64,000 nt of DNA, taken from contig NZ_LT629736.1 of the NCBI RefSeq assembly GCF_900104945.1, positions 1,302,001 through 1,366,000 of the forward strand, given 5' to 3'. The position numbers and the translations under genes were made by a program. The DNA comes from Halopseudomonas xinjiangensis. Lineage in GTDB: Bacteria > Pseudomonadota > Gammaproteobacteria > Pseudomonadales > Pseudomonadaceae. The notes beneath the pieces are model-generated. The model saw only the letters and a list, made by a program, of their open reading frames with translations, ran no database searches and was not told where the DNA came from. This document shows, in pieces, positions 7,279 through 59,055 of the stretch (positions are counted from its first letter, which is position 1; every line of letters starts with the position of its first letter).

Positions 7279-7288
7279 GAGTCGAAGC

Positions 7289-7660
7289 ATGAGCGTAGAA
7301 TCGTTTGATCCGCACGCGGCAGCCGTAGGCAGCCCGGCGGTGACCGTCACGCCAGCGGCTTTGGCGCACTTTCGCCGCCAACTGGCCAGCCATAGCGGTC
7401 AATCCGTCCGTTTGAGCATCAAGAAAAGCGGTTGCACAGGATTCATGTACGTCATCGACCTGGTTGAGCAAGGCGCGGCGGACGACGTGCAGTACCAGCT
7501 GGATGACGTTGTCGAGCTGCGGGTGGCGCGCGATGCGCTGCCCGTCGTCAGCGGTACGGAGATTGATCTGGTCAAGGAAGGTATCAATCGGCAGATCAAA
7601 TTTCACAATCCGAACGTCAAGGATGAATGCGGCTGCGGCGAAAGCTTCAGTGTCAGCTAA
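7289..7660 (+). CDS. sufA: SufA-like A-type Fe-S carrier
   Basis: A-type carriers accept clusters from the SUF scaffold and deliver them to apo-proteins. This 123-residue protein has the three signature cysteines: Cys49 in KSGCTGF and Cys114/Cys116 in the C-terminal ECGCGESF. It starts 10 bases after sufS with a good ribosome site (TAGGAG). By operon position it is SufA; by sequence alone it could equally be an IscA/ErpA relative. Confidence 0.92.
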   Translation: MSVESFDPHAAAVGSPAVTVTPAALAHFRRQLASHSGQSVRLSIKKSGCTGFMYVIDLVEQGAADDVQYQLDDVVELRVARDALPVVSGTEIDLVKEGINRQIKFHNPNVKDECGCGESFSVS

Positions 7661-7735
7661 CGCCGAAGTCATCTTCCATACAGCTATCCGGACAGACTGC
7701 TCGGGTCTGCCGGCGAAAAGGAGCTAGGTCCCGAG

Positions 7736-8269
7736 ATGGAAAGACGCATGGTAGTGGCGCAGGCAGATTGTCCTGCGCGCCGCGTTCCGGATGGTACGCC
7801 CCTGACTATTCCCAAGGACACTTTCGTCACCATCACACAGGCGCTCGGTGGCAACTACACCGTGACCTATCATGGCCAGATGGTTCGAGTGGACGGGACG
7901 GACGCTGCAAGCCTGGGCCTTGAGCCGGAGCTGTTGAGTTTTCCGCCAGCCGAAGACAATCAGATCCGCGAAGAGCAGGTCTGGGAGGCATTGGGCACCG
8001 TCTACGATCCCGAAATCCCGGTCGATCTGGTCAATCTGGGTTTGATCTACAACGTGACAATCGACCAACAGGCCAAGCGGGTAGACATCAAAATGACCCT
8101 GACAGCGCCAGCCTGCGGGATGGGTCCGGTTCTGGTAGGCGACGTCGAGTATCGAGTCAAACGTGTTCCGAACGTCGAGAAGGTGGACGTCGACCTCGTC
8201 TTCGATCCGCCCTGGAGCCGTGAGATGATGAGCGAAGAGGCTCAGCTCGAAACCGGAATGTTTTTCTGA
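7736..8269 (+). CDS. sufT: SufT, MIP18/DUF59-type Fe-S assembly factor
   Basis: SufT is an auxiliary maturation factor of SUF operons. This 177-residue protein has the characteristic N-terminal SufT extension (TITQALGGNYTVTYHGQM) followed by a MIP18/DUF59 domain from about residue 80: VYDPEIPVDLVNLGLIYNV, the cysteine-containing TLTAPACGMGP, and FDPPWSREMMSEEA at the end. The ATG at 7736 has GGAG about 13 bases upstream; ATG 7748 is an alternative, four residues shorter. The 75-bp gap after sufA is the largest in the second half of the operon; I see no terminator in it. Confidence 0.9.
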   Translation: MERRMVVAQADCPARRVPDGTPLTIPKDTFVTITQALGGNYTVTYHGQMVRVDGTDAASLGLEPELLSFPPAEDNQIREEQVWEALGTVYDPEIPVDLVNLGLIYNVTIDQQAKRVDIKMTLTAPACGMGPVLVGDVEYRVKRVPNVEKVDVDLVFDPPWSREMMSEEAQLETGMFF

Positions 8270-8278
8270 GAGGTTTGC

Positions 8279-8701
8279 ATGAGCCAGTTCGGCACTGACA
8301 TCACCAGCGAAGACATCATCGACTCGCTGTCTTTTTTCGATACCTGGGAAGATCGTTACAAATACATTATCGATCTCGGCCGGGAGCTGCCTCCGCTGGA
8401 CGACAGTCAGCGCACCGACGTGAATATCGTTCGCGGCTGCCAGAGCCAGGTGTGGCTGGTCAGCAGGCGAGAGGGCGATCGGCTGTACTTCGATGCGGAT
8501 AGCGACGCGTTTATTGTCAAAGGTCTGCTCGCAGTCGTGCTGGCTGCGTACAATGGCAAAACGCCCGAACAGATTTTGAGTTTCGACATCGATGCATACT
8601 TCGAGCAGCTCAATCTGATGAAGCATCTCAGCGTGACCCGAGGGAATGGGCTGCGGGCGATGGTCAAACGGATTCAGGATACGGCGGCCGCCGCATCCTG
8701 A
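8279..8701 (+). CDS. sufE: SufE, sulfur acceptor for SufS
   Basis: SufE takes the persulfide from SufS, activates it and relays sulfur to SufB. The 140-residue protein contains the conserved acceptor cysteine in VRGCQSQVW (Cys54) and the usual helical N-terminus FFDTWEDRYKYIIDLG. It starts nine bases after sufT with GAGG upstream and is the last gene of the operon. No clear intrinsic terminator follows before the next gene. Confidence 0.94.
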   Translation: MSQFGTDITSEDIIDSLSFFDTWEDRYKYIIDLGRELPPLDDSQRTDVNIVRGCQSQVWLVSRREGDRLYFDADSDAFIVKGLLAVVLAAYNGKTPEQILSFDIDAYFEQLNLMKHLSVTRGNGLRAMVKRIQDTAAAAS

Positions 8702-8811
8702 GGCGGGACAAAAACCTTTTCTGTCATGTCGATCGTTTCTGTCTCGTATTGAGCCTCTCTCTGATGGCAATAAGATATTGCCTGTAGCTTGAATTGCCGC
8801 TAAAGTCGCTT

Positions 8812-8857
8812 GGGGTCGCCCTGTCGGGTCCCCATTCACAACAATAGTGGCGACCCC
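8812..8857 (+). repeat. Perfect 9-bp inverted repeat abutting a start codon
   Basis: GGGGTCGCC at 8812-8820 and GGCGACCCC at 8849-8857 are exact reverse complements separated by 28 bp. The right arm ends immediately before the ATG of the diguanylate cyclase at 8858 and occupies the position of its ribosome-binding site, where no clear Shine-Dalgarno is visible. If folded in mRNA it would occlude initiation; as DNA it could be an operator. Confidence 0.5.
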
Positions 8858-9916
8858 ATGCACAACGCCTGGAAGCGGCTGAATAACGATTTCCAGCTGT
8901 CAATCATCACCATGGTAGGCATCTGCTCGGTTGGCGGAATAACGCCGTACGCGGTCTACCGCCTGTTTGAAAGCAACTGGCTGGTCAGCCTGATCGACGC
9001 CTTCCTGGTACTGAATACCGTTATTGCAGTGCTTTACGCCTGGCGCACCGGCGATACCAGACGTCCGGGCCAGTACCTCGCGCTGGTTTACTCCATCGGC
9101 ACCATCGTTATCGTCACCAAGCTCGGTATCAACGGCCTGTTCTGGGTCTATGTGCTCATCCTCTTCAACTTCTTCGTCGTGCCGCCGCTCCAAAGCGTGA
9201 TCGCCACCCTGTCCATGCTGACGGTGCTGTGTCTTTACGGCTTGCTGAACCCGGGCACCTTGTTCGCTGATGACTTCCAGATGACCTCGTTCATGGTGAC
9301 CAGCCTGCTCGCCAGTCTGTTCGCCTTTGTATTTGCCTATCGCGGCCGGGAGCAGCGTCAGAAACTTAGCGAATTGGCCACGATCGATCCGCTCACTGGA
9401 GTTGGGAATCGACGCACAATGGATACGGAGCTGGAAATAGCCTTCAACGAGCACACGCGCTACCAGGTCGGTTTTGGCCTGCTGATTCTCGATCTGGACC
9501 ATTTCAAACTGGTCAATGACCGTTACGGGCATCGTGCCGGCGATGAGGTGCTTGTCGACTTCGTGGACATCGTGCGGTCTGCCTGCAGGCAATCTGACAG
9601 GTTGTTCAGATTGGGCGGCGAAGAGTTCGTTTTGCTGGTACCGCAGATCGACGAGCGGGGTATGGTGCGGCTTGCCAACAACATCCTCGCAGATATCCGC
9701 CGATTGCTAAGCGGCCCCGGCGGGCCTGTCACAGTATCGATTGGCGGAGCCTTGTTGGCCGATCATTCGGGTATCGAAACCTGGCTGCACGAAGCGGACG
9801 AACGCCTTTACCAGGCCAAGAAGAACGGCCGTGATCAGGCCATCATTCGTTCAGAGGGATCAAACTCGTCCGGGCTGGTGTCGAATTCAGCATCGGATGT
9901 CGCCATTCAAGGCTAA
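8858..9916 (+). CDS. Membrane-bound diguanylate cyclase (GGDEF)
   Basis: The protein makes cyclic di-GMP from two GTP. Its 352 residues comprise about five or six hydrophobic segments over residues 10-162 and a C-terminal GGDEF domain starting at DPLTGVGNRR (about 177). The active-site signature is GGEEF (253-257), a functional variant. An RxxD inhibitory site (Arg244-Asp247) lies the standard five residues upstream, so product feedback is expected. Start at 8858 is chosen because the hydrophobic N-terminus begins there. It is monocistronic or loosely linked to the next gene (41 bp). The membrane part is not a sensor domain I recognise with certainty. Confidence 0.9.
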   Translation: MHNAWKRLNNDFQLSIITMVGICSVGGITPYAVYRLFESNWLVSLIDAFLVLNTVIAVLYAWRTGDTRRPGQYLALVYSIGTIVIVTKLGINGLFWVYVLILFNFFVVPPLQSVIATLSMLTVLCLYGLLNPGTLFADDFQMTSFMVTSLLASLFAFVFAYRGREQRQKLSELATIDPLTGVGNRRTMDTELEIAFNEHTRYQVGFGLLILDLDHFKLVNDRYGHRAGDEVLVDFVDIVRSACRQSDRLFRLGGEEFVLLVPQIDERGMVRLANNILADIRRLLSGPGGPVTVSIGGALLADHSGIETWLHEADERLYQAKKNGRDQAIIRSEGSNSSGLVSNSASDVAIQG

Positions 9917-40735: not shown

Positions 40736-41236
40736 ATGTCTAGCGTCACTCTCAAGGGCAATCCCATCAATGTAGCCGGCTCGCTTCCCGAAGTGGGTGC
40801 TCAGGCACCAGCGTTCACGCTGGTGGCCAAGGATCTGTCGGATGTCAGCCTGGCCAGCCTGAGCGGCAAGCGCAAGATCCTCAACATCTTCCCCAGCGTC
40901 GATACGCCAACCTGCGCCATGTCTGTCCGGCAGTTCAACAGCCGGGCGAGCAAGTTGGATAACACCGCCGTGTTGTGCATCTCCGCCGACCTGCCTTTCG
41001 CCCAGTCGCGCTTCTGCGGCGCCGAAGGACTCGACAACGTCATGACGCTCTCAACCATGCGCGGCCGCGATTTCCTGCGCGACTATGGCGTCGAGATTGA
41101 AAATGGTCCGCTAGCCGGAGTGTCGGCCCGGGCAGTAGTGGTCCTCGACGAGAACGACAAGGTTGTGCATAGCGAACTCGTCTCGGAGATCGCCAACGAG
41201 CCCGACTACGAAAAAGCATTGTCGGCCCTGAGCTGA
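40736..41236 (+). CDS. tpx: Thiol peroxidase Tpx
   Basis: Tpx is an atypical two-cysteine peroxiredoxin of the periplasm or cytoplasm that reduces hydroperoxides with thioredoxin. In 166 residues it has the peroxidatic Cys60 in [11 protein letters not shown] and resolving Cys94 in SRFCGAEGL, matching E. coli Cys61/Cys95. AGGAG lies just before the ATG. It follows tamB by 47 bp and converges on the glycosyltransferase gene. Confidence 0.96.
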
Positions 41237-41247: not shown

Positions 41248-41268
41248 GGGGCCAGGTTCACTGGCCCC
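41248..41268. terminator. Convergent hairpin between tpx and the glycosyltransferase gene
   Basis: GGGGCCAG (41248-41255) and CTGGCCCC (41261-41268) make a perfect 8-bp stem with a GTTCA loop. It overlaps the last codons and stop of the glycosyltransferase gene and lies 11 bp past tpx. The flanking T tracts are weak, so termination efficiency is uncertain. Confidence 0.6.
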
Positions 41269-42658
41269 ACTTTCCACTGCGACGCATGGTGCCCCAGCTG
41301 TGCTTGCGCCGAGCGAACCACTGATACATTCCCCTGCATCGCCACAAGGTATTGAGCTGGCGATAGCCGAAGTTCTCCAGTACAGCCATGCCAAACAGCC
41401 TTAACACGTCGCGACGCCGGTTATAGACGCGAAACGACATCGTCTCCAGCAATAGGCCGTTCACTGACAACAAGATGCCCATACCTATCGCTACCAGCAG
41501 GAATATGGCCATGGCCGTGTGAGATATCCAGCCCATCGCCAGCCCGACTAACATGAAGAGGTAACCAGCCAGTTCGATCAACGGGCCCAACCATTCGAAC
41601 ACTGCCATGAACGGCCAGGCCAGCCAGCCGGGCGCTCCGCCGCGGGTACTGAAGCAGAGTCGGGGGTGAGCTGCCAGACTCTCGGCGAGGCCGCGCTGCC
41701 ACCGGCTGCGCTGACGGCCGAGGGTACCGATGTCTTCCGGCGCTTCGGTCCAGCATATGGGGTCGGGCAAGTAGCGAATACAGTACGGAATGCGATTGAG
41801 ACGATGATGCCGGTGTAGCCGGACCACCAGCTCCATGTCCTCGCCGACCGTGTCGCTGCGGTAGCCGCCTACCTGCATGACCCGCTCACGATCGAACAAA
41901 CCGAACGCGCCGGAGATGATCAGCACAGCATTCAAAGGAGACCAGCCGAGTCGGCCGAACAGGAAGGCACGCAGATATTCGACGATCTGGAATCGCGCGA
42001 TCCAGTTCGTGGGCAAACCGGCGCTGACCAGAAAGCCGCCACGTACGGTTGAGCCGTTGGCGATGCGGACGGTGCCTCCCGCAGCGATCGTGTGGGTGTC
42101 TTCAAGAAATGGCTGTACGACGCGCAGCAGGCTGTCTCGCTGCAGGATCGAGTCGGCGTCCACCCCGCAGAACAAGCCATGGCGTGCGGCATTGATGCCT
42201 GCGTTCAGCGCATCGGCCTTACCGCCGTTTTCCTTGTCGAGGACTTTCAGATTGGGGTAGCGTCGCGAGCGGTAGATGCCGACCACCGGCTTGTGCGGTA
42301 CCGCCTGGCGCAGAGGCTCCGGATAGGCGAGCAGGTCAAACTCCTCGCTCAGCACCGCCAGCGTGCTGTCCTTCGAGCCATCGTTGATGACGATCACTTC
42401 GAGCTCCGGGTATTGCAACTGCAACATTGAGCGTACCGAGGTACGAATGGTCGCTTCTTCGTTGAAGGCCGGCATGAGCACTGAGATAGCGGGTTCGACA
42501 CCGAGGTAGGGGGCGGCTTCGCCAATCTCGGCATGCCGGCGGATGTAGCCCAGCAGGCTGACCATCGATAACAGGTTCAATAGCAGATACGTGCCGTTGA
42601 GCAGCAGAAAATAGACAATGACCCCAACCTGCACCCACCAATGCCAGCCGGAGCTCAT
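41258..42658 (-). CDS. Processive family 2 glycosyltransferase, membrane-bound
   Basis: This 466-residue inner-membrane protein resembles PgaC-, hyaluronan- and cellulose-synthase-type enzymes that polymerise a sugar and pass the chain through the membrane. An N-terminal helix (about 8-35) precedes the GT-A domain: SVLMPAFNEEATI, VINDGSKDST, the DxD-type GVDADSI, GEDMELVVRLHR with the catalytic Asp, and GRQRSRWQRG, which is the Q-x-x-R-W motif of processive enzymes. Three or four C-terminal helices follow (about 325-410). No PilZ domain is present. It is the last gene of a five-gene overlapping operon with YaiO and a two-component system. The polymer is unknown. Confidence 0.88.
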   Translation of the reverse strand: MSSGWHWWVQVGVIVYFLLLNGTYLLLNLLSMVSLLGYIRRHAEIGEAAPYLGVEPAISVLMPAFNEEATIRTSVRSMLQLQYPELEVIVINDGSKDSTLAVLSEEFDLLAYPEPLRQAVPHKPVVGIYRSRRYPNLKVLDKENGGKADALNAGINAARHGLFCGVDADSILQRDSLLRVVQPFLEDTHTIAAGGTVRIANGSTVRGGFLVSAGLPTNWIARFQIVEYLRAFLFGRLGWSPLNAVLIISGAFGLFDRERVMQVGGYRSDTVGEDMELVVRLHRHHRLNRIPYCIRYLPDPICWTEAPEDIGTLGRQRSRWQRGLAESLAAHPRLCFSTRGGAPGWLAWPFMAVFEWLGPLIELAGYLFMLVGLAMGWISHTAMAIFLLVAIGMGILLSVNGLLLETMSFRVYNRRRDVLRLFGMAVLENFGYRQLNTLWRCRGMYQWFARRKHSWGTMRRSGKWGQ

Positions 42659-43782
42659 TCGCGTCGCTCCGCGATGACACGGCGCAGTGCATCCTGGCCG
42701 TACCGGTCGGGAAAAGTCTCGGCAAGCTCCAGCAGCTTCGCATCGCTATAACCGGGTAGCGAGGCGACGGCGTCGGCCGCAGCCTGGCGTACCCACCAAC
42801 TCAAGTCGGTGAGCATGCCAATCAGCCACTCGGCGTCGTCTGGATCCGCCTGGTACCGAAAGGTCTGTACCGCTACGAGCCGAACGTTGGCATCGGTGTG
42901 GTCAAACTGAGCCAATATTCGCGTGCGGTCCCTTGGGTCGTTGATTGCGCCAAGACAGCGCAACGCGGTCTGCAGCAGGTCGGCAGCCGCTTCGCTGTCT
43001 AGCTGTAGACGAGCCCAGGGGCCAGTCAGCCGTGGCTCCGCGAAGGTCATCAAGCTCGCCAGGCGATGCCGTTGGGGCTCGTCGGCGGCATACATCGTGG
43101 CCAGCAGGGCGGGAGTAACAGCTGCGGGTTCGGCGTACTGACAGAGAGCAGCAAGCCGGGGCAGCGCCCAATCCTGTCGCTTCAGGGCGATGGGTAGCAC
43201 CACCTCCATGGCTCGTGTCGCATCGATAGCGATGAGCGTCTGCGCCGCCGCCAACGCCAATATCGCGTTTCGGTGATCAAGCAATGCGGCAATCGCATCC
43301 CAGTGACGCAGACTGCCGAAGTAGCGCAAACAGGTGAGCGCAATCAGTCGCTTACGTACGCCTCCTCGCAAGAGTTCGAGGACGTAAGGCCCCATGCCGA
43401 GCGCATCCAGCGCGGCATTCATCCTTTCCCGTGCCGTACCACGCAAATGTTGTTGCAGGCGGTTCCATTGCAGTACCCACCACAACCGGTCTCGACGGGC
43501 CAGCTTCGGGGGGGCCGAGGGCAGCCCATCGCTGATGCTGCACAGCGCCAGAAAAGGCCGCCAGCTCTCATTGAATGTCTTGCGCCGGCGGGCTCGACGG
43601 TTTCCAAGCTCCGATAACGCGACGACCTGCAGCATGATCGCCAGTGTGATCAGGGTCAAAACGATGGCTGAATAGACCGCGATGCGCAACATGGGCTCCG
43701 TGGGAACCCAGTCTCGCCATACACTCAGAAGATCGCTCCGACACAGCCAGGCCGGACAAGCCAGGACGGTGTCAGAAAGCAT
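42655..43782 (-). CDS. Membrane-anchored HEAT-repeat protein
   Basis: This protein of about 375 residues has one membrane helix (MLRIAVYSAIVLTLITLAIMLQV region, about 31-55) and then a helical repeat domain of HEAT/PBS-lyase type, e.g. LRYFGSLRHWDAIAALLDHRNAILALAAAQTLIAID, FDHTDANVRLVAVQTFRYQADP and LSWWVRQAAADAVASLPG. Such repeats are protein-interaction scaffolds; here a link between synthase and outer-membrane parts is plausible. I use ATG 43782, which overlaps the YaiO stop by 11 bp; ATG 43692 is the alternative. Its stop overlaps the glycosyltransferase start (ATGA). Confidence 0.78.
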   Translation of the reverse strand: MLSDTVLACPAWLCRSDLLSVWRDWVPTEPMLRIAVYSAIVLTLITLAIMLQVVALSELGNRRARRRKTFNESWRPFLALCSISDGLPSAPPKLARRDRLWWVLQWNRLQQHLRGTARERMNAALDALGMGPYVLELLRGGVRKRLIALTCLRYFGSLRHWDAIAALLDHRNAILALAAAQTLIAIDATRAMEVVLPIALKRQDWALPRLAALCQYAEPAAVTPALLATMYAADEPQRHRLASLMTFAEPRLTGPWARLQLDSEAAADLLQTALRCLGAINDPRDRTRILAQFDHTDANVRLVAVQTFRYQADPDDAEWLIGMLTDLSWWVRQAAADAVASLPGYSDAKLLELAETFPDRYGQDALRRVIAERRE

Positions 43783-44899
43783 GCCGCAGCCCGATCTGCA
43801 GCCACCGACGGGTGTAATAGTCGCCTTGTTCGTGGTGCCCGAGTTCCCAGGACAGCGCCCAGTCAGGCTCGAACCAGTGGCGACCCTGCAGCCCCATAGC
43901 GCGAACACTGCTGGTAAACAGCTGCGAACCTTCGATTGCTTCCTCTTCACCGGTTGTCAGCCTGAGTCCGGCGTAACTGAGCCCTGCGTAGTAGTAGTCG
44001 AGCGAAGCGTTATGGCCGACTGGAGTTCCAGCGTTGGATACATCGCTCACGTTCAGGGTGTAGCTCCCCCGCCAGGCGTCCCAGTAACGTTCGGCCGTCA
44101 AGCCGATACGCTCTACACGGCTGGTGGCGTATTCCGTGCGACGGAGGCTTGCCGCAGCGAGAAACCCCTTTGCAAGGCTGCGCTGAAGCCGCAAGTCGGC
44201 GTACCAGTCGGGCAGGAAAAACGGAGAAAACTGATAGCCGATCTCCGGCTGCAAACTCCAGTTCTGATCCAGCGTGAACACCGCACCAGCTTCGACGCCC
44301 TCATCCCACTCACCAAAACGCTGCTCGCGTAGCAACGCACCGTACCAGGCGATTCCCTCGGCCTGGGTAGAGAAATAGTCCAGGCGTTGCCGGCGCCAGT
44401 TGTCGAACCCGCTGTCCAGCCAATCCTGACGCAGCGACACCTCGAGTTCATGACGGCGGCGAGCTGAGCGCTGGGACAGGGTGATGCGATTGCTCGGCGC
44501 GCTGAGTGCCATCCGGGCCTGACGCATAGCGTTATCGATGTCCGGGTAGTCCGGGGCGATAAACGCAGCCGCTTCCAGCGTGGCGATGGCTGCGTGAACC
44601 TGACCGTCCCACAGCTGAGCCTGGCCCAGAGCGAGAAGATAATCGGCATTGCCCGGCGTTTCGCGCGATAACTGTTCCAGCAGCGGTATCGCCGCTGCGG
44701 TTTCTCCCTGCCAGGCAAGAACGCGAGCAAGCAGGAAGCGGACACTTTGGTCATCTGGCTGAGAACGCAGCTGCTGTTCGAGCGTCGCTCGTGCGGCGGC
44801 CAGATTGTCGGCGTCCACCTGTGTCCGGGCTTGCTGTACGTCGGCACCGACGGGGCCAGCAAAAATAACGAGCAGCAGCAGGGTAGAGCGGTATATCAA
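43772..44899 (-). CDS. YaiO-family TPR and outer membrane beta-barrel protein
   Basis: This 375-residue exported protein starts with a signal peptide (about 1-19). A short TPR-like region follows (about 20-130), with LRSQPDDQSVRFLLARVLAWQGETAAAIPLLEQL. The C-terminal YaiO-type barrel (about 140-375) is rich in alternating aromatic strands and ends WLQIGLRHAF, a normal outer-membrane terminal strand. In E. coli yaiO sits beside the glycosyltransferase gene yaiP; here it is in one operon with another. The TPR-plus-barrel layout recalls PgaA/AlgK-AlgE-like polysaccharide exporters (inference). Overlaps the response regulator gene by 4 bp. Confidence 0.8.
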   Translation of the reverse strand: MIYRSTLLLLVIFAGPVGADVQQARTQVDADNLAAARATLEQQLRSQPDDQSVRFLLARVLAWQGETAAAIPLLEQLSRETPGNADYLLALGQAQLWDGQVHAAIATLEAAAFIAPDYPDIDNAMRQARMALSAPSNRITLSQRSARRRHELEVSLRQDWLDSGFDNWRRQRLDYFSTQAEGIAWYGALLREQRFGEWDEGVEAGAVFTLDQNWSLQPEIGYQFSPFFLPDWYADLRLQRSLAKGFLAAASLRRTEYATSRVERIGLTAERYWDAWRGSYTLNVSDVSNAGTPVGHNASLDYYYAGLSYAGLRLTTGEEEAIEGSQLFTSSVRAMGLQGRHWFEPDWALSWELGHHEQGDYYTRRWLQIGLRHAF

Positions 44900-45285
44900 C
44901 GGGGCCTCCGAATCAGCCGCTTGATGCGAGCGAGGAGCTCTTCGGGTTGAAACGGCTTGGTGACGTAATCATCCGCACCCAGCTCAAGCGCCTTGACGAT
45001 ATCGGCCTCGCGCGCTTTAGCAGTCAGCATGAGCACTGGCAGGTATTCCCAGCCGGGCGTACTGCGGAGCCGCTGAATGATTTCGATGCCGTCATGGTAG
45101 GGCAGCATGATATCCATCAACACCAGATCAGGCGGTGCCGACTGGGCCAGATAGTCCATGGCCTGCCTACCATCTGCGGCGTGGTCGACCGAGTATTGCT
45201 GACGCTCCAGCATGAAGCGGATGAGAAAAGCGATATCTTCCTCATCCTCGATGACCAGAATGTGCAAGTTATCCTGTTCGTTCAT
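44896..45285 (-). CDS. Single-domain response regulator
   Basis: This 129-residue protein is a lone CheY-like receiver: acidic pair in VIEDEEDIAFLIRF, phospho-acceptor Asp in LVLMDIMLPYHDG (about residue 56), Thr in MLTAKAR, and Lys in YVTKPFQPEELLARI. There is no output domain, so it must act through protein contacts or as a phosphorelay intermediate. Its start overlaps the kinase stop (ATGA) and its stop overlaps the yaiO-like start, which argues that it works with both. Confidence 0.92.
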   Translation of the reverse strand: MNEQDNLHILVIEDEEDIAFLIRFMLERQQYSVDHAADGRQAMDYLAQSAPPDLVLMDIMLPYHDGIEIIQRLRSTPGWEYLPVLMLTAKAREADIVKALELGADDYVTKPFQPEELLARIKRLIRRPR

Positions 45286-47810
45286 GGAGTGCCCTCGTTT
45301 CGGGCGGCTGCATCCACGGCCGGCCAGTGATGGAGCAGTTGCTGGATAAGCGAGGCCAGCTCGTCGCTTTCATGTCGAGACTTGACCAGTCGTTTGAGCA
45401 CCAGGCGGCTTTCAGCAACGGGTGAATCGAGCGCGGAGAATATGATGACCGGGGTGGGTGGGCTAGCCTTCGCCAGCTCGCCAATGAGCTCCGAGCCGTC
45501 GCCGTCCGGCAACATGAGATCGAGAATCGCCAGGTCGTGGTGGCTCCGCGTCAGGGCTTCACGTGCCTCTGCCAAACTGCCTACGCCCACCACGTCGACG
45601 TCCAGGGGAGCCAGCAGGTTGGCCAGCAAGGTGCGTAGATCGGTATCGTCCTCCACGTGGAGGATCGAAGGGCGGCCGCCGGCCGGCCGCAGGATAGCCT
45701 TGACTACGTCGAGTACGCGCATCGGATCGATCGGCTTGTTCAGCCAATCCATCACGCCTACCGCGCTGCCGCGCATCACGCCTTGACGATCACCCGATTC
45801 CTGGCTTGGGTCGACGCTGACAACCAATATCGGCAAGTGGCGAAACCTGGCCTGCTCTCGTAGGTTCTGCAGAAATGCGATGCAATCTTCATCGCGCAGG
45901 GTAGGGCTCAACGTCAGTGCGTGCACAGGGCCGTGCGTGAGCAGTTCACGAGCCTCGCCAGCCGAACGTGCGCGTATCACCTCGTAGCCCTGGTGCGCTA
46001 GCATGGTCAGAAGAAAATCCGCAGCGCTGTCATCCGGCTCCAGCACCAATACAGAACGAACGTTCTGCGTCGAGGGCTCTTGCTCTAATGGTTGCGGAGT
46101 CGCAACGGTCACCTGGGAGTTCGCATGAGGTAAACGCACAAAGAAACGAGCGCCCTTGTCAGGTTCCGATTCGAACCCGATGGAGCCGTGCATCTGTTCG
46201 ACCAGGGAGCGGGTAATTGCCAATCCCAGCCCGGTCCCGCCGAGACGCCGAACATTCGATGAATCTGCCTGTGCGAACCGCTCGAAAATGCGGCCACGAA
46301 ACTCTTCCGGTACGCCGGGACCACGGTCGACGACACCGATTTGGACGCTATCTTCACTTTCGTCAACGGTTACCGTCACCAGGCCTCCCCGCGGCGAATG
46401 CTTGATCGCGTTGGACAGCAGATTGGCCATCACCTGAGCGAAACGATCTGCATCGACCAGCACTGTCCCCGGGTCCGCACCTGGCGCCTCCAACTGCAGG
46501 GTGACATCGAACTCGCGCGCATAGGGAAGGTTGGTCGACAGCGAATTATTTATCAGCGGCAATAGCGGCTGAGGCGAAAGGTTGAAAGCCAGCCGCCCCG
46601 AAGCGAGCTTCTCGATGTCAAGAATGTCGTTGACCAGACGAACCAGTCGCTCACTGTTCTTGTGGGCGATGTCGAGCAGAAGCTTCTGCTGTTCATCTAC
46701 CGTACCGAGCGTACCGCTGACCAACATGCCTAGTGCGCCGCGAATGGCGGTCAAGGGCGTACGCAATTCGTGGCTGACAGTCGAAATAAATTCATTCTTC
46801 ATGCGCTCCATTTCGCGTCTCAGCGAAATGTCCACGGCCACCGTCAGCACCAGACGATGTCCGGCCGACAGCTCGAAGGCGCGCTTGCATATTTGCAGGC
46901 AGATCTGCCGGCCGCCGATGAACAGGTCGAGCTCGGCTATGCGTAACTCAGGCTTGCCTTCAAGCAGTTCGGCATCGCCTTCAAACAGCGGGGAAAGCGT
47001 GTCGAATTGGGGTAAATCTTCGACGCCTTCGCCCTGCAATGCGTCGGGCCGGCTTCGTGACAAGCCGGCAAAGGCCTCATTGCAAAGCAGAAGCCGGCGC
47101 CTGGAATCCGTAACGAAGATGTAATTGTCGTCCGCATCGACCACACTGCGCAGGAAGAGGCGTTGATCGTCGACGCGTTTCTGACTTCTGTCTACGAGCC
47201 AGATGGCCCAACAAAACAAGCATGCAGCGAACAATCCGCCAATCCAGGCGATCCAGCGTGCCTGATGCACGCGAGCATCAACAGCGCGGTTCTGTGCGGC
47301 GAGCTTCGCTCGTTCCGACGACTGCAGTTCAGCAAACAAGCGTCGCAGCTGATCCATGGCGTCTTTGCCACCTGCACCCAGCAGACGATCCGCAGCACCG
47401 GCCAGACCGCTGTCCATGCGTGCCTCGATGTTGGCATCGGAAATATCAAGTTTACGATCGACCAATCGATCCAGATCTCCGATCCAGCCCGGGCGCGGCG
47501 CCCCGGACATCGCCAGCAACTGGCCAAGCTTGCGGCGACGCTCGGCCAGCCGCGCCTGAGCTGCCAGATAAGGCTCCAGGTAGCGTTCAACACCGGTAAT
47601 CACGTAGCCGCGCTCACCGGTCTCGATGTCCTGAATCGATGAGAACATCTCTCTTGCAGCCGTGATCAGCTCGAGGCTATGTTGAACCGATTCGTTCGCA
47701 TCGAGTAGAGAGCGCTGGGTGCGGGCGCCTTGCCAGGCAAGCAGCAAGAGAACGCTAAACCCCAAAAGGAAGGCGAGGAGATGCAAACTGAGCTTGGATG
47801 AAACGCGCAA
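45282..47810 (-). CDS. Hybrid histidine kinase: CHASE3-PAS-HK-REC-REC
   Basis: This inner-membrane sensor of 842 residues has a helix (about 10-28), a periplasmic CHASE3 domain (about 35-180, with SIQDIETGERGYVITG), a second helix (about 187-206), a PAS-like domain (about 215-325), HisKA with VSHELRTPL (His347), HATPase_c with NLLSNAIKHS and GGTGLGLAI, and two receivers. The first receiver (about 586-705) has Ser635 where the phospho-acceptor Asp should be; the second (about 715-830) is intact with Asp764. I chose TTG 47810 because AAGGAG lies 7 bases upstream; ATG 47852 has no ribosome site. First gene of the polysaccharide operon. Confidence 0.88.
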   Translation of the reverse strand: MRVSSKLSLHLLAFLLGFSVLLLLAWQGARTQRSLLDANESVQHSLELITAAREMFSSIQDIETGERGYVITGVERYLEPYLAAQARLAERRRKLGQLLAMSGAPRPGWIGDLDRLVDRKLDISDANIEARMDSGLAGAADRLLGAGGKDAMDQLRRLFAELQSSERAKLAAQNRAVDARVHQARWIAWIGGLFAACLFCWAIWLVDRSQKRVDDQRLFLRSVVDADDNYIFVTDSRRRLLLCNEAFAGLSRSRPDALQGEGVEDLPQFDTLSPLFEGDAELLEGKPELRIAELDLFIGGRQICLQICKRAFELSAGHRLVLTVAVDISLRREMERMKNEFISTVSHELRTPLTAIRGALGMLVSGTLGTVDEQQKLLLDIAHKNSERLVRLVNDILDIEKLASGRLAFNLSPQPLLPLINNSLSTNLPYAREFDVTLQLEAPGADPGTVLVDADRFAQVMANLLSNAIKHSPRGGLVTVTVDESEDSVQIGVVDRGPGVPEEFRGRIFERFAQADSSNVRRLGGTGLGLAITRSLVEQMHGSIGFESEPDKGARFFVRLPHANSQVTVATPQPLEQEPSTQNVRSVLVLEPDDSAADFLLTMLAHQGYEVIRARSAGEARELLTHGPVHALTLSPTLRDEDCIAFLQNLREQARFRHLPILVVSVDPSQESGDRQGVMRGSAVGVMDWLNKPIDPMRVLDVVKAILRPAGGRPSILHVEDDTDLRTLLANLLAPLDVDVVGVGSLAEAREALTRSHHDLAILDLMLPDGDGSELIGELAKASPPTPVIIFSALDSPVAESRLVLKRLVKSRHESDELASLIQQLLHHWPAVDAAARNEGTP

Positions 47811-48581: not shown

Positions 48582-49226
48582 TTACCAATTGGATATAGTG
48601 TAAATAAAACCGAGTACAGCAATAACAAGCAAGGTCGTGCTGGACATAACAGAAATAACCTTCTGATATTTTGTCGCAATCCGATGCTGCATAAAGAAAA
48701 TGTAGGACGTTAGTATCGCGAGGTCTATCATTATCCACAGGGCGGTCAGAATCGTAACGCTTCCGCTAAAGGTGTTTGTTATGGATATGAATTGCGGGAA
48801 AAACGCCACAAAAAATATAATATCTTTTGGATTTGAAATTGCCACGGCAAACCCTTTCGCCAGGCAACTCAGCGTCGCACCTTTTCTCCTCGTAGAAGCA
48901 GTAAAGCCAACACCTGTTTTAGTGTCGGGCTCCGCCGCGAGCGTGGTTGATCTCAACGAGTCGATAGCTATATAAGCTATGAATAAACACCCCAGCAGAC
49001 TCATCGCCGATATAAGTTCTCGACTAATCGACATGGCTCCACTAAGTATTAATACCGCGGCAGCTATTAGAACGAGAGAAGCCCAATTGGTGCCAAGTGC
49101 TGTAAAAACCGCCTGCCTCGCGCCTTGCCTAACACTGGTGTTGATAACCAAAGCTACAACGGGCCCTGGCGTTGCTACCAAAAGCATTACTGACACAACG
49201 TAAGCAGCTAGTATTGAGGTTTCCAT
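48582..49226 (-). CDS. LysE/RhtB-family amino acid exporter
   Basis: This 214-residue inner-membrane protein has the LysE/RhtB fold of about six helices, with the N-terminal signature LLVATPGPVVALVINTSVRQG, the central GCLFIAYIAIDSLRS, and the conserved GFAVAISNPKDIIFFVAFFPQFI. Family members export amino acids or derivatives. The gene overlaps the upstream YqcI/YcgG-type gene by 19 bp and must be co-translated with it, implying that it exports that enzyme's product (inference). Codon and base composition are AT-richer than in flanking core genes. Confidence 0.88.
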   Translation of the reverse strand: METSILAAYVVSVMLLVATPGPVVALVINTSVRQGARQAVFTALGTNWASLVLIAAAVLILSGAMSISRELISAMSLLGCLFIAYIAIDSLRSTTLAAEPDTKTGVGFTASTRRKGATLSCLAKGFAVAISNPKDIIFFVAFFPQFISITNTFSGSVTILTALWIMIDLAILTSYIFFMQHRIATKYQKVISVMSSTTLLVIAVLGFIYTISNW

Positions 49227-53996: not shown

Positions 53997-55355
53997 ATGG
54001 TTGTTCGTTTCCCATTGAAATCGCTTGCTGTCGTGGTATCTGCCAGCTGGTTGCTAGTTGCTTGTGATCGCCCTGAAGACACCCCGCCCGAGCCGCAGGT
54101 CAGTCAGGTCGAGGCGGACGCTACCGTATCGGCAGATCCTGCTACGTCCGCTGAGTCTGGCGTGAACCGCGAAGCAGTCGTCGAAACGTACGCCGACATC
54201 GCCTACGCCACCTATCAGGACGCGTTGACCACAGCACAACGTCTCGACAAGGCGGTAGACGAGCTGATCGCCAATCCGAATCAGGAGACCCTGCAGGCAG
54301 CACGCGAGGCTTGGAAGCAGGCACGGGTGCCTTACCAGCAATCCGAAGTGTTTCGCTTCGGTAATCCAGTGGTCGACGAATGGGAAGGTCAATTGAATGC
54401 CTGGCCGCTCGATGAAGGCCTCATCGACTATGTCGCCAACGACGGTTACGAGCACGAGATGGGGAATGACGGCGCCAATGCCAACATCATCGCCAGCCAG
54501 GAAATCAATATCGGTGGTACCACCCACGACGTAAGCGAGTTAACACCTGAACTGCTCGCCGAACTCAACGAGGTCGGTGGCTCGGAGGCGAACGTGGCGA
54601 CCGGTTACCACGCGATCGAATTCCTGCTCTGGGGCCAGGACCGCAACGGTTTCGAGCGTGGGAATGGTGATAGACCGGCTACCGACTACGCCAAGGGCGA
54701 CGAATGCACCAACGGTAACTGTGATCGCCGGGCGGAATACATCGATGCGGCGACAGACTTGTTGGTGCAAGACCTGGAATGGATGGTGCAGCAATGGGCA
54801 CCTGGGAAGAACGAGAACTACCGTGCCGAACTGCTTGAACTGAAGCCGGAAGAAGCTCATCAGCGAATGCTGTTTGGCATGGGTTCGCTTTCATTGGGTG
54901 AGCTTGCCGGGGAACGCATGAAGGTCGCGCTGGAGGCCAACTCGTATGAGGACGAGCACGACTGTTTCAGCGATAACACCCATAACTCGCATTATTACAA
55001 CGGGCTGGGTATTCAGAACGTATACCTCGGACGTTATGAGCGGGTCGATGGCGAGGTCGTCGAAGGCGCCTCTCTGTCCGATCTGGTCGCCCAGACTGAT
55101 ACCGAACTGGACCATAAGCTGCGCTTAGAGTTGGAACAGTCGATGCAGGCGCTTGGCGAAATGAAGAAAGCGGCGGAAGCAGAATCAGAACCGATGCCGT
55201 TCGACATGATGATCGCTCCGGAGAATGAGCGCGGTCACGAGCTGATAAACAACGCCATCAACGCTCTGGTCGAGCAGACTGGTTCGATCGAAGCAGTGGC
55301 TGCGAAGGTTGGCGTGGAGTCGCTCGAACCTGACGACGCAGGTCACTCCTTCTAA
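53997..55355 (+). CDS. icmP: Imelysin-family iron-regulated lipoprotein (IcmP/IrpA-like)
   Basis: This 452-residue lipoprotein has a signal peptide with lipobox LVAC (Cys23), then the imelysin (peptidase M75/EfeO-like) fold, with the family motif GYHAIEFLLWGQD (GxHxxE) in the middle. P. aeruginosa IcmP, its likely counterpart, was described as an insulin-cleaving metalloproteinase; the wider family is now viewed as periplasmic iron-binding or uptake proteins. AGGATGG precedes the ATG. It heads a four-gene operon with a di-heme protein, a second imelysin and a DUF1513 protein, behind a Fur-like box. Confidence 0.9.
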   Translation: MVVRFPLKSLAVVVSASWLLVACDRPEDTPPEPQVSQVEADATVSADPATSAESGVNREAVVETYADIAYATYQDALTTAQRLDKAVDELIANPNQETLQAAREAWKQARVPYQQSEVFRFGNPVVDEWEGQLNAWPLDEGLIDYVANDGYEHEMGNDGANANIIASQEINIGGTTHDVSELTPELLAELNEVGGSEANVATGYHAIEFLLWGQDRNGFERGNGDRPATDYAKGDECTNGNCDRRAEYIDAATDLLVQDLEWMVQQWAPGKNENYRAELLELKPEEAHQRMLFGMGSLSLGELAGERMKVALEANSYEDEHDCFSDNTHNSHYYNGLGIQNVYLGRYERVDGEVVEGASLSDLVAQTDTELDHKLRLELEQSMQALGEMKKAAEAESEPMPFDMMIAPENERGHELINNAINALVEQTGSIEAVAAKVGVESLEPDDAGHSF

Positions 55356-55368
55356 GTACTGAAGATAA

Positions 55369-55404
55369 CACCGTCATGACCTGGGCCGCCCGGGCATGAC
55401 GGTG
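55369..55404. repeat. Intergenic hairpin within the imelysin operon
   Basis: CACCGTCATG (55369-55378) and CATGACGGTG (55395-55404) form a perfect 10-bp stem; the loop itself contains a GGGC/GCCC hairpin. There is no T run. It lies 14 bp past the icmP stop and may set differential mRNA stability between icmP and the downstream genes. Confidence 0.55.
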
Positions 55405-55486
55405 CTGCTTCAGATTGCCGCAGATCAATGTCGCACTCGGTAAACCGCGTACCATCTGACGGCCAACCTCGTAAATCGGTACGTCA

Positions 55487-56884
55487 ATGAAGAAACTTCA
55501 CCTGCTGTTCGGAGTGGCGGCGCTGAGTCTGGCCTGTGAGGCGATGTCCAGCCCGCCGACGCAGCAGTCGCCTAAATCCGGTGGCGATGGGAGCATAGGG
55601 CTGGCTAATCAGAACGCCTATTCCCTCCCCCAGGCTAATCTGCCGATGACCAAGCGGCTGGATTTCAGCGTGGGCAACAGTTTTTTCCGCAATCCCTGGG
55701 TCGTCGCACCGGCCAGCACCGATGCACGGGACGGACTGGGCCCATTGTTCAACACCAATTCATGCCAGGGCTGCCACATCAAGGATGGCCGTGGAAATCC
55801 GCCTGGCGAAACTCTGAGTTCGGTCTCTCTGTTCCTGCGCTTGGCTATACCGCCGCGTGGTGAAAAAGATCGGGAATTGCTCGAACGCCATGGTTTCGTA
55901 CCGGAACCCGTATACGGCAGTCAGCTACAAACCGCCGCCATTCCCGGTTCGAAAGCTGAAGCCGAGTTGGTCGTGGAATGGGAGCGCTTCGAGGAAGAAC
56001 TGGCCGACGGTTCTCTCGTTGCCATGCGCAGGCCGATATACCGGATCGAGAACCCCAACTATGGCCCGTTGGCCAATGATGTACAGATTTCGCCCAGGGT
56101 GGCTCCGCCGATGATCGGGCTTGGTCTGCTTGCAGCTATACCCGAGCAGGACCTGCTGACCAATGCGGATCCCGACGATAGCGATGGCAATGGGATTTCC
56201 GGACGGACCAATAAAGTATGGGACCGCGCCTCGGAACAAACCGTCCTGGGACGCTTCGGCTGGAAGGCAGGCGAACCGAATATCATGCAGCAAAGTATGG
56301 GCGCCTTCGCCGGAGACATGGGCATCACCTCTGCGCTTGCGCCTTTCACCGACTGTACCCAGAGCCAGGGATGCGAACGCTTCCCCCATGGTGGCGAGTT
56401 CGAGGTCAGCGATGAAGTGGCAAACTTCGTCGCGTTCTATGCCAGTAGTCTTGCGGTGCCGATACGCCGCGACATGGACAAATCAGAAGTGAAAGCGGGC
56501 GCCGCCGCCTTCAACGAGGCCGGTTGCGCCGCCTGCCACACGCCCCGTCACGTCACCGGTGTAGTCGCCGACCGACCCGACCTGTCCCTGCAGGAAATCT
56601 GGCCATACACCGACTTGTTGCTTCATGACATGGGGCCAGGATTGGCTGATGGTCGTGGCGAGTTTCTGGCCGATGGAAACGAATGGCGTACTCCGCCGCT
56701 CTGGGGCCTTGGACTCGCCACGACGGTGAATCCTGCCGCCGGATACCTTCATGACGGACGCGCCGAAACGCTTGAGCAAGCCATCCTCTGGCACGACGGA
56801 GAAGCGCGTCCGGCAGCCGATGCTTACCGCGAGCTTGATGCAACCAAGCGCAACGCGATGTTGCAGTTTCTCAACTCTCTGTAA
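55487..56884 (+). CDS. Di-heme oxidoreductase-like (DUF1111) lipoprotein
   Basis: This 465-residue exported protein has two c-type heme motifs, CQGCH (93-97) and CAACH (near residue 350), in the DUF1111 'thiol oxidoreductase' layout related to MauG/di-heme peroxidases. Residues 1-17 form a signal with possible lipobox LSLAC. It sits between two imelysin genes. In such operons it may change iron redox state during transfer (inference). The next gene starts 10 bp after its stop. Confidence 0.88.
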   Translation: MKKLHLLFGVAALSLACEAMSSPPTQQSPKSGGDGSIGLANQNAYSLPQANLPMTKRLDFSVGNSFFRNPWVVAPASTDARDGLGPLFNTNSCQGCHIKDGRGNPPGETLSSVSLFLRLAIPPRGEKDRELLERHGFVPEPVYGSQLQTAAIPGSKAEAELVVEWERFEEELADGSLVAMRRPIYRIENPNYGPLANDVQISPRVAPPMIGLGLLAAIPEQDLLTNADPDDSDGNGISGRTNKVWDRASEQTVLGRFGWKAGEPNIMQQSMGAFAGDMGITSALAPFTDCTQSQGCERFPHGGEFEVSDEVANFVAFYASSLAVPIRRDMDKSEVKAGAAAFNEAGCAACHTPRHVTGVVADRPDLSLQEIWPYTDLLLHDMGPGLADGRGEFLADGNEWRTPPLWGLGLATTVNPAAGYLHDGRAETLEQAILWHDGEARPAADAYRELDATKRNAMLQFLNSL

Positions 56885-56894
56885 GGAGCTTGCC

Positions 56895-57944
56895 GTGTTC
56901 TCCGGTTCGAAAATCCCCCGCCTCGGCTTGTTGTGCCTCGGGCTGATCGGCTGCTGCGTCAGCCCCTTTGCCTTCGCAGACGCAGGCGCCCTTGAACGCT
57001 GGCACGACGAGATCGGCAGCGGTTATGCAGACCTGAGCGCATCCAGTGCTTCGTTGGCCCAGGCTGCTCATAGCTACTGCGAGCAAGACACTTCCACTGC
57101 CCTCACTCGGGATTCACTGGAGCAAGCCTGGCGAGACGCCTTCCTGGCCTGGCAGCGTGTTCGCTTCGTCGAGTTCGGTCCCATTCAGCAGGACAGCTTG
57201 ACCTGGCAGTTTCAGTTCTGGCCGGATCCGAAGAATCTGGTGGGCAAAAAGGCCCGCGGTTGGCTTGCGAGCGAGAGAGAGATCACCGGCGAATCGATAG
57301 GCTCGGACAGCGTAGCAGTGAAGGGCTTTCCGGCTATCGAATACTTGCTCTTCGATGAGCAACAACAGCAGCGCGAAGATGCGCTTCCCACCGATCGAGC
57401 CTGCAGCTTGTTGACGACTGTCACGCAGCGGATCGAGGCCAACGCGCGACGCCTGACTTCCGACTGGCAACAGTTTCGTCCCCATTATGTCGAGCAACCA
57501 GCCTATGCCGACGACACCGTGCTGGCGGCCATGCATGCACTGGAACAGATGAAGGACCGGCGCCTGGGTGCGCCGATTGGTGCCGGAGGCAAGGGTCGCA
57601 AGAATCCGTATCTTGCCGATGCCTGGCGAAGTGGGCAGTCCCTGGCCGCCGTACGCGCCTCGCTCACCGGCTTGCGCGATCTTTTCCTGCCTGGCCTGGC
57701 GCTGCGCCTGCAGGGAGAAGAGCGTCAGGCGCTGTACAAGCGCTTTTCACAACAGCTCGATGGCACGTTGGAGCGACTCGATCGGCTCCCGCCCGACATG
57801 CGCTCGCTCCTGGAAGACGACGCAGGCTATCGTCAGCTTCAACTGTTGTTTCTCGACGTTGAGCGACTGACCACTCAGCTGTCTACCTCGATCGCGCCTG
57901 AGTTGGGCGTGGTGAAAGGCTTCAATTCCAGCGATGGTGATTGA
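56895..57944 (+). CDS. Second imelysin-family protein
   Basis: This 349-residue exported imelysin-type protein has a signal peptide (about 1-27, cleaved near AFA). The conserved start of the fold is LEQAWRDAFLAWQRVRFVEFGPI, and the GxHxxE-equivalent motif reads KGFPAIEYLLFDEQ, in which Pro replaces the usual His. The start is GTG at 56895, with AAGGAG six bases upstream; no ATG fits. It is shorter and more diverged than the first imelysin. The DUF1513 gene begins at its stop. Confidence 0.88.
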   Translation: MFSGSKIPRLGLLCLGLIGCCVSPFAFADAGALERWHDEIGSGYADLSASSASLAQAAHSYCEQDTSTALTRDSLEQAWRDAFLAWQRVRFVEFGPIQQDSLTWQFQFWPDPKNLVGKKARGWLASEREITGESIGSDSVAVKGFPAIEYLLFDEQQQQREDALPTDRACSLLTTVTQRIEANARRLTSDWQQFRPHYVEQPAYADDTVLAAMHALEQMKDRRLGAPIGAGGKGRKNPYLADAWRSGQSLAAVRASLTGLRDLFLPGLALRLQGEERQALYKRFSQQLDGTLERLDRLPPDMRSLLEDDAGYRQLQLLFLDVERLTTQLSTSIAPELGVVKGFNSSDGD

Positions 57945-57945
57945 G

Positions 57946-59055
57946 ATGACGACGCGACGAGACGTCCTCTGCGCCCTGCTAAGCGGTATCGCTTTGAGTG
58001 CCCTCCCCTGGTCCATTCGTCAGGCCCGTGCCGCTACCCCGGTCGGCCGCATTCTTAGTGCCGTGGACGATACATCAGGACGGCATTTTATTCACTTGGG
58101 CCACGGTGCCGACGCAACCGGGGTCGATTTTCCCGTCACTCAGCGCTGTCATGGTGGCTGTCAGCGGCCCGGGTCTGGCGAGGCGGTCATTTTCGACCGT
58201 CGGCCGGGTCGATTTTTTCATGTGCTCGATATAGCGAACGGCCAAGTGCGCGCACATATCGAGGCCGCGACCGACTATCATTTCTTCGGCCATGGGGCAT
58301 TCAGCCCGGATGGCGGGCTACTTTACGCGACGGCGAATCACATCCCCAGCGGAGAAGGCCAGATATGCGTGTATGACGCACGGTCCGGCTACGGTCTGAT
58401 CGATGTCTACCCGGTCGGCGGAATCGATCCGCATGAGATCCGACTGATGCCGGACGGCTCCAGCCTGGTCATCGCCATGGGCGGTATCCTCACGCACCCG
58501 GACTACGAACGCATCAAGCTCAATCTTGATACGATGCAGCCGGCGGTAGTCTTGATGGACCGGCTGAGCGGCAAGATCCTGCAGCGCCACACACCTTCGA
58601 ATCATCAGCTCAGCGCGCACCACCTGGACGTCGATTCGCGCGGTATGGTGGTGGTCGGCTATCAGTACGAAGGACCCGAGTGGGATACACCTCCTCTGAT
58701 CGGGGTGCTCGACAGCAAGCAACAGACTTACCGGGAAATTACCTTTGAAGACGGGGTCCAGCGGCAGCTGCGTAACTACGTCGCCAGTGTGGCCCTGGAT
58801 TCTTCCAGTGGTCTCGCTGCAATCACCGCTCCGCGCGGCAACCTTGTAGCCGTATTCGACTACAGCAGCGGAACCTTGCAGAGACTGGTCGCGGTACCGG
58901 ATGTGGCCGGTGTGCTCGTCGACGGCGAGACATTCGTCGTTTCGTCGGGACGTGGGGGGCTGTACCGGGTAGATCCGCAGCGGGACGAGGCGGTACTCCT
59001 CGGTTCACAGGATCAGCGCTGGGACAATCACCTGACGCGCATAGGGCTCGCTTGA
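57946..59055 (+). CDS. DUF1513 protein with Tat signal
   Basis: This 369-residue protein starts with a twin-arginine signal (MTTRRDVLCALLSGIALSAL), so it is exported folded, perhaps with a cofactor. The rest is repetitive and beta-rich (e.g. AFSPDGGLLYATANH, GIDPHEIRLMPDGSSLVIAMGG), which suggests a propeller. DUF1513 has no established function; it is consistently placed with imelysin genes. The start at 57946 gives the cleanest Tat signal; ATG 57934 overlaps the upstream gene and adds four residues. Confidence 0.85.
   Translation: MTTRRDVLCALLSGIALSALPWSIRQARAATPVGRILSAVDDTSGRHFIHLGHGADATGVDFPVTQRCHGGCQRPGSGEAVIFDRRPGRFFHVLDIANGQVRAHIEAATDYHFFGHGAFSPDGGLLYATANHIPSGEGQICVYDARSGYGLIDVYPVGGIDPHEIRLMPDGSSLVIAMGGILTHPDYERIKLNLDTMQPAVVLMDRLSGKILQRHTPSNHQLSAHHLDVDSRGMVVVGYQYEGPEWDTPPLIGVLDSKQQTYREITFEDGVQRQLRNYVASVALDSSSGLAAITAPRGNLVAVFDYSSGTLQRLVAVPDVAGVLVDGETFVVSSGRGGLYRVDPQRDEAVLLGSQDQRWDNHLTRIGLA

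Follow-up and report, generated by a model that had tools for sequence, protein, structure and literature searches.

Organization of the locus

The subject of this analysis is a five-gene operon in a stretch of 64,000 nucleotides from Halopseudomonas xinjiangensis (NZ_LT629736.1, assembly GCF_900104945.1, positions 1,302,001-1,366,000, forward strand), which is referred to here as the window and whose own numbering is used throughout. Five open reading frames lie end to end on its minus strand and encode a hybrid sensor kinase, a lone receiver, a protein that joins tetratricopeptide repeats (TPR) to a YaiO outer-membrane beta-barrel, a HEAT repeat protein and a membrane-bound family 2 glycosyltransferase (GT2). 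On balance, we favor the view that they constitute a synthase-type exopolysaccharide machine, in which a GT2 resembling hyaluronan synthases would act together with a HEAT scaffold and the TPR-YaiO barrel, and which the lone receiver would activate once the kinase has phosphorylated it.

Given gene starts at 45285, 44899, 43782 and 42658, the four junctions overlap by 4, 4, 11 and 4 bp, exactly as in the overlapping operon that a sequence-only reading of this DNA had described, and the overlaps suggest that the five genes are translated together. The 11-bp overlap between the YaiO and HEAT genes hinges on the start of the latter: if translation began at the ATG at 43692, which is preceded by a GGAG of its own, the two genes would be separated by a gap, and a short form of the protein (344-345 aa) accounts for eight of the 62 homologues in the database, including the record for the window itself, most others measuring about 358-377 aa. 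The 30-residue extension that begins at 43782 bears a CPxWLC-type motif common to most aligned Pseudomonadaceae homologues, and because of this conserved N-terminus 43782 is the better start, 43692 is judged less likely in spite of the short homologues, and the overlap stands. The cysteine pair of this motif (residues 9-14) is predicted to lie on the periplasmic side of the membrane helix described below and is absent from the aligned Halomonadaceae and Lysobacteraceae-like homologues. Junctions were also read in 42 relatives (L002-L043), dropping unreadable ones, which mostly have no short receiver frame. The corresponding overlap start was available in 23 of 29 readable junctions between receiver and YaiO (4 bp), in 35 of 40 between YaiO and HEAT (11 bp) and in 33 of 41 between HEAT and GT2 (4 bp).

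The predicted synthase, the HEAT protein and the YaiO barrel

The GT2 gene (41258-42658, minus strand; 466 aa; PF00535, PF13641 and PF13632) encodes all of the motifs D, DxD, ED and QxxRW, the last in the form Q-R-S-R-W, together with membrane helices in the arrangement of a synthase, and thus shows the features expected of a processive enzyme; no PilZ domain was matched in Pfam. A structure model of the protein (pLDDT 89.5) has the Chlorella virus hyaluronan synthase as its eight best fold matches in the PDB, with TM-scores of 0.55-0.68 over the query length and 14-16% identity. Hyaluronan synthase of Xenopus, cellulose synthases and chitin synthases follow further down, with ranks 9 and 14 occupied by an archaeal mannosyltransferase. 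The best of these matches (PDB 7sp8/8snc) shares 16% identity with the window protein, a likeness of fold that does not imply a substrate, and the Chlorella virus enzyme is not known to have HEAT or barrel partners. The modeled fold suggests that the GT2 would carry out processive synthesis of a polymer together with its extrusion.

An enzyme of this family could also add single sugars to a lipid or a surface glycan, with the HEAT and YaiO proteins serving that modification. The GT2 does match many non-polymerising members of the family by sequence, if at low score, and four of 37 aligned relatives have altered motifs. We nevertheless consider a non-polymerising role very improbable, given that all four processive motifs are complete in the other 33 and that processive synthases are matched along the length of the model, membrane helices included; in addition, the neighboring gene starts, inspected by eye and without a search, showed no evident flippase or Wzy-type polymerase.

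Among the four relatives with altered motifs, the GT2 of L102 (7209-8570, minus strand), which lies beside a HEAT gene, has lost nearly all of the motif residues (DxD, ED and QxxRW) and is possibly a dead or non-catalytic copy. In L077 (7289-8662, minus strand), L079 (7205-8587, minus strand) and L080 (9660-11018, plus strand), the glutamate of ED is replaced by Gln or Tyr, and in L077 and L079 the arginine of QxxRW is replaced by His or Phe; sequence changes of this sort perhaps indicate a different substrate or mode of action in this clade.

The HEAT protein (42655-43782, minus strand; 375 aa) matches PF13646 (HEAT_2) in Pfam and no NCBIfam model. A single N-terminal hydrophobic helix is present in all 68 homologues scored (those from loci above 170 bits, below which L078 and L100 fell), and in 67 of these 68 the net charge is more positive after the helix than before it, for which reason the solenoid is predicted to be cytosolic and tethered by this transmembrane helix. 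The structure model (pLDDT 94.5) shows residues 30-83 as one helix followed by the solenoid. A fold search returned designed repeats and generic HEAT/ARM folds, and a sequence search of the PDB mainly designed HEAT repeats. A search of plasmids with the protein gave no match. Searching proteins more deeply with the HEAT alignment returned 66 matches, but almost all of them came from the near clade already sampled, and the known range was not widened.

The TPR-YaiO protein (43772-44899, minus strand; 375 aa) is read from a TTG start at 44899 and opens with a signal-like hydrophobic segment (residues 1-19). It belongs to the YaiO family by both TIGR04390 (142.8 bits, cut-off 32) and PF19413 (87.1 bits, cut-off 23.9) and also matches TPR families; a PDB sequence search with it returned TPR matches only. 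The barrel domain comprises about 225 residues. In Pfam, the YaiO protein of L037 has a TPR match and that of L027 has none. The home-made model used to call YaiO proteins at distant loci might pick up TPR as well; ten divergent proteins were therefore rechecked against TIGR04390, and all ten exceeded its cut-off of 32, with 35.3 to 158.4 bits.

Conservation as a unit

A scan with the HEAT alignment over one genome per species yielded 43 named loci, a set which, being found through the HEAT protein, is uninformative on cases without it. Kinase, receiver, YaiO, HEAT and GT2 genes stand on one strand and in the same order in 42 of them, and the remaining one (L044) is cut by the end of a contig; the neighborhood search suggested in the sequence-only reading thus turned up the co-occurrence on which its proposal depended. 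The loci belong to the Pseudomonadaceae, mainly Stutzerimonas, and to the Halomonadaceae and Lysobacteraceae. By best match per locus, identity to the window proteins is 73-85% for the GT2, 66-76% for the lone receiver, 48-58% for the kinase, 41-68% for the YaiO protein and 40-55% for the HEAT protein. Frames are in pieces in some copies (L009, L020, L021 and L043); at L043 of Halomonas olivaria (5537-9069), the kinase, YaiO and HEAT frames are each broken, which may reflect a decaying copy or sequencing error.

The association was also assessed in a draw of 369 genomes at the level of the class, with thresholds of E <= 1e-60 for the GT2 and E <= 1e-50 for the HEAT alignment, both scans being taken as the same draw because the listed handles agree. 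The GT2 occurs in 17 of these genomes, a strong HEAT match in 17 and both in 16, compared with the roughly 0.8 genomes that independence would predict (17 x 17 / 369). In the single GT2-only genome (G101), a HEAT gene in pieces lies beside the GT2 (4.9e-22) at a place where the contig contains ambiguous letters, and in the single HEAT-only genome (G227) the gene runs off the contig end. At E <= 1e-8, HEAT matches extend to 97 genomes; the other 79 score 73.5 bits or less and mostly cover a portion of a longer open frame, which is what other HEAT proteins should give. Comparing the four core proteins by their distance matrices gives correlations of r 0.91-0.98, shared ancestry not having been removed. 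The five-gene set is not a product of chance.

More distant relatives define what is constant in this set. In 28 genomes with a GT2 match, most of them more distant, the surroundings were read over 7.5 to 18 kb. In 27 of these, the GT2 gene has a HEAT gene as its neighbor (in pieces in L078), L100 having only a 26-bit match. A YaiO gene is near the GT2 in 26, is absent from L070 and L102 and stands two genes away in L075, where a sulfatase-fold gene and a gene for a 478-aa protein without a Pfam match are located between YaiO and HEAT (2869-6112, minus strand); in L072 the orientation of the GT2 is reversed. The deep core is YaiO-HEAT-GT2, and the complete order of five genes is a feature of the near clade.

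As the HEAT protein is as constant across these loci as the GT2 itself, we infer that it is a partner of the GT2 at the inner-membrane face. A role merely as a docking site for the receiver was rejected as its sole function, because the HEAT gene persists beside the GT2 at loci that have no lone receiver.

The distribution of the system is patchy. A draw across the phylum found the GT2 in 14 of 398 genomes, nine of which are labeled as other classes. Within the genus, all three loci found carry it next to a peroxiredoxin gene; of the 35 peroxiredoxin loci found there, 30 were read, and the other 27 hold different genes at this place.

Relation to known polysaccharide systems

Synthase-dependent systems such as Pga/Hms, Bcs and alginate combine a QxxRW-bearing GT2 of the membrane with a partner protein in the inner membrane and with TPR plus an outer-membrane barrel, and are controlled at the level of the protein. 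The window system resembles them in its parts and, if our interpretation is correct, also in its control. It differs in having a HEAT protein instead of PgaD, BcsB or Alg44, a barrel of the YaiO type and phosphorelay proteins within the operon, while Pfam matched no PilZ domain in any of the five genes, as Alg44 would require, and identified no deacetylase or glycosidase among them.

A more conservative interpretation is that of a divergent Pga-type locus for poly-N-acetylglucosamine, in which the HEAT protein has replaced PgaD and YaiO has replaced PgaA. PgaC (TIGR03937) is indeed the best NCBIfam match of the GT2, and in the relative L101 a polysaccharide deacetylase-type gene adjoins the GT2, which limits to the five genes themselves the earlier statement that the system has no deacetylase: among these, neither PgaD nor a PgaB-type deacetylase was matched in Pfam or NCBIfam. 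We regard a Pga-type locus as quite improbable, however, for the GT2 reaches 138.8 bits against a PgaC cut-off of 422.3, the YaiO protein reaches 21.9 bits, over its TPR part only, against a PgaA cut-off of 366.65 (TIGR03939), and the HEAT protein matches no model in NCBIfam. Furthermore, the two kinds of system coexist in single genomes. In L066 (3951-8145) and L067 (9535-12478), a second GT2 and a PgaA-like TPR protein of 565-571 aa are located tail to tail with the HEAT-type system. The second GT2 of L066 is close to PgaC (401.6 bits) and is accompanied by a short, weakly PgaD-like protein (22 bits, cut-off 31.45) and a PgaA-like one of 82.8 bits; L067 has a like pair, its PgaA-like protein scoring 82.9 bits. 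A Bcs assignment fares no better, the GT2 scoring 42.3 bits with CelA/BcsA against 699.1 and having no PilZ match in Pfam. Both Pga and Bcs membership were rejected on scores and missing parts, and the distinction from these systems drawn in the sequence-only reading holds.

The same reading had pointed to yaiO-yaiP of Escherichia coli as a precedent. The pairing is real, as a YaiO barrel gene lies near a GT2 gene annotated as a putative glucosyltransferase in yaiO-yaiX-yaiP-yaiS (NC_000913). The parallel is a loose one, since the two GT2 proteins share 26% identity over part of their length and the YaiO proteins give no significant BLASTP match, on which grounds the identity of the two systems was rejected. 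The E. coli locus contains acyltransferase (broken by IS2) and deacetylase genes, and neither a HEAT protein nor a receiver is annotated there. Among open-licence papers in PubMed Central (PMC), no described locus of this make-up was found, which agrees with the sequence-only reading, to which no characterized system of this composition was known; two papers mention HEAT repeats in other contexts (PMC12419801; PMC3826837), and "YaiO" in a Methylobacterium paper is a strain name and not the protein.

Additional genes in some relatives bear on the possible sugar. At the loci L077, L079 and L080, which have no receiver, TviB-like nucleotide-sugar dehydrogenases, resembling those for UDP-GlcNAc, and epimerases of the short-chain dehydrogenase/reductase type lie nearby, together with GlmS in L079. 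With the deacetylase-type gene of L101 and the sulfatase-fold gene of L075, these neighbors hint at amino sugars or uronic acids in some distant relatives, without naming the sugar of the window system.

The sensor kinase and the lone receiver

The kinase gene (45282-47810, minus strand; 842 aa) is read from a TTG at 47810, ahead of which stands AAGGAG; the frame is also open as far as a GTG at 47912, an alternative start. Its domain order in Pfam is CHASE3-PAS-HisKA-HATPase-receiver-receiver. In an alignment of nine kinases (eight distinct ones, as L023 and L065 are one assembly), the first of the two receivers (45702-46055, minus strand) has Ser or Asn in place of the phosphorylatable Asp in all nine and is thus a pseudo-receiver, and the second (45336-45668, minus strand) keeps the Asp. 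Across this region (45336-46055, minus strand), the site in the pseudo-receiver reads like LTLSP or LTINL, and the second receiver is shortened and contains LVKSRH. Two Halomonadaceae kinases (L027 and L040, both checked by Pfam) have no receiver of their own, yet the lone receiver is encoded next door.

The lone receiver (44896-45285, minus strand; 129 aa) has PF00072 as its sole Pfam match and no output domain. Of 48 aligned rows, 96-98% retain D14, D58 and K110 and 92% retain T88, so that the protein qualifies as a single-domain response regulator with its phosphorylation residues in place. Most Stutzerimonas loci carry additional kinase and receiver genes upstream; in L005, the one such locus checked for them, Pfam identifies an Hpt-REC-GGDEF protein along with a PAS kinase and a receiver. 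A different arrangement is seen in L071, where protein kinase-like and PP2C-like genes (4528-6138; named by eye) precede receiver-YaiO-HEAT-GT2 and no histidine kinase lies in the fetched stretch.

Among the 28 genomes read out, the lone receiver stands beside the core genes in 19, and in ten of these 19 a kinase is encoded within the fetched stretch. A GT2 tree of 30 rows, which was midpoint-rooted and in which ten of 27 inner branches are left open and L102 and L076 form long branches, places receiver-less loci in several places and receiver-bearing loci in both halves. A single origin of the receiver-less loci was rejected, as the tree needs four changes, at least two of which are forced by well-supported branches. 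These sequence data suggest that the receiver is probably old and has been lost several times.

Proposed mechanism and control of the synthase

It is from the parts, their order, their co-occurrence and the predicted fold that we infer both a polymer and the step at which its synthesis would be controlled. The CHASE3 kinase may sense a signal of the cell envelope, and its HisKA domain would then phosphorylate the lone receiver; direct transfer from kinase to lone receiver is the shortest route, because the two Halomonadaceae kinases without a receiver of their own keep the lone receiver adjacent. Once phosphorylated, the receiver may bind at the inner-membrane face, either to the HEAT solenoid or to the GT2. 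A target inside the machine is favored because the receiver has no output domain, its gene overlaps those of the synthase and it stays where no kinase is near. The GT2, whose fold match supports this activity, would polymerise a nucleotide sugar and push the chain through its own membrane channel, after which the TPR part may guide the chain and the YaiO barrel may let it out. The HEAT protein, judged by its co-occurrence with the GT2, would be an obligatory partner of this enzyme. In other systems, this place is held by PgaD, Alg44 and BcsB.

The closest precedent for such control comes from Myxococcus xanthus, in which the phosphorylated single-domain receiver EpsW is reported to activate EpsZ, the phosphoglycosyl transferase that initiates a Wzx/Wzy pathway; according to the same paper, protein-level control of synthase-dependent pathways frequently proceeds via c-di-GMP (PMC12802240). 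In both cases a receiver without an output domain would serve polysaccharide synthesis, through direct post-translational control as reported in Myxococcus and as a proposal here. The candidate target in the window system differs, being a processive synthase, its HEAT scaffold or both rather than the initiator of a Wzx/Wzy pathway; by this analogy, the system would be a synthase-side counterpart of EpsW-EpsZ.

Several observations weigh against the proposed machine or its control by the receiver. Nine of the 28 genomes surveyed have no lone receiver next to the genes, and in nine of the 19 that do have one, the fetched stretch (7.5 to 18 kb) contains no kinase. No receiver-specific conserved patch was detected on the HEAT protein in a comparison, of low power, between 16 receiver-bearing and eight receiver-less sequences. 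Four of the 37 aligned GT2 proteins have altered motifs (L102, L077, L079 and L080), all of them from receiver-less loci. Within the genus, the GT2 occurs in only three of 37 genomes (E <= 1e-80), and the open reading frames that adjoin the operon, inspected by eye with no search run, include no recognizable sugar-nucleotide gene, lyase or deacetylase. Known polysaccharide export barrels are larger than the YaiO domain, which calls the passage of a polymer through it into question.

Some of these points would also fit if YaiO-HEAT-GT2 secretes a polymer as proposed and the kinase and receiver merely ride along, controlling genes elsewhere or c-di-GMP, possibly as part of a longer relay through an Hpt-REC-GGDEF protein. 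The genomes in which HEAT-GT2, mostly with YaiO, occurs without the lone receiver (nine of 28) and a HEAT surface without a receiver-specific patch are consistent with this alternative, and the upstream kinase and receiver genes of Stutzerimonas, with the Hpt-REC-GGDEF protein of L005, place a c-di-GMP route at hand. We consider it unlikely, though likelier than the other alternatives. The receiver gene can begin in a 4-bp overlap with YaiO in most readable junctions (23 of 29), its product is 66-76% identical across three families, it occurs on either side of the midpoint root of the GT2 tree, and in nine of 19 cases it is present with no kinase in the stretch; for these reasons the receiver appears to stay with the synthase more than with a kinase. 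That the window GT2 has no PilZ match also speaks against this alternative.

Control of the synthase by the phosphorylated receiver would lead to a broader proposition, to which we give an even chance of being right: that systems with a YaiO-HEAT-GT2 core form a separate and widespread class, in which the aspartyl phosphate of a receiver, acting via a membrane-tethered HEAT protein, gates the synthase and replaces the c-di-GMP/PilZ control of Bcs, Alg and Pga. The HEAT partner would be the new defining part of this type of synthase-dependent secretion, and control by the receiver is the bold part of the proposal. If it is true, a phosphorylated receiver with a HEAT scaffold would represent a second way of gating such synthases besides c-di-GMP, present in Stutzerimonas, Halomonadaceae and Lysobacteraceae and, in outline, in genomes from other classes of the same phylum, and "HEAT repeat domain-containing protein" annotations beside GT2 genes would gain a function. 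Receiver, HEAT, GT2 and YaiO proteins would then also offer a compact set of few parts for studying signaling from a receiver to a synthase.

Flanking genes and further features

At the end of the GT2 gene, a pattern scan marked a terminator-like hairpin (41248-41268, minus strand), which is weak evidence for a terminator, as eight such hairpins occur in the region against 6.5 (standard deviation 2.3) in shuffled sequences. The operon is flanked by a convergent peroxiredoxin-like gene (40736-41236) and, past a gap on the other side, by an unrelated LysE-like gene (48582-49226), both named by eye. Further along the window, the plus strand carries what by eye appears to be an imelysin-type iron cluster (53997-59055), with two imelysin-like genes, one dihaem oxidase-like gene and one DUF1513-like gene.

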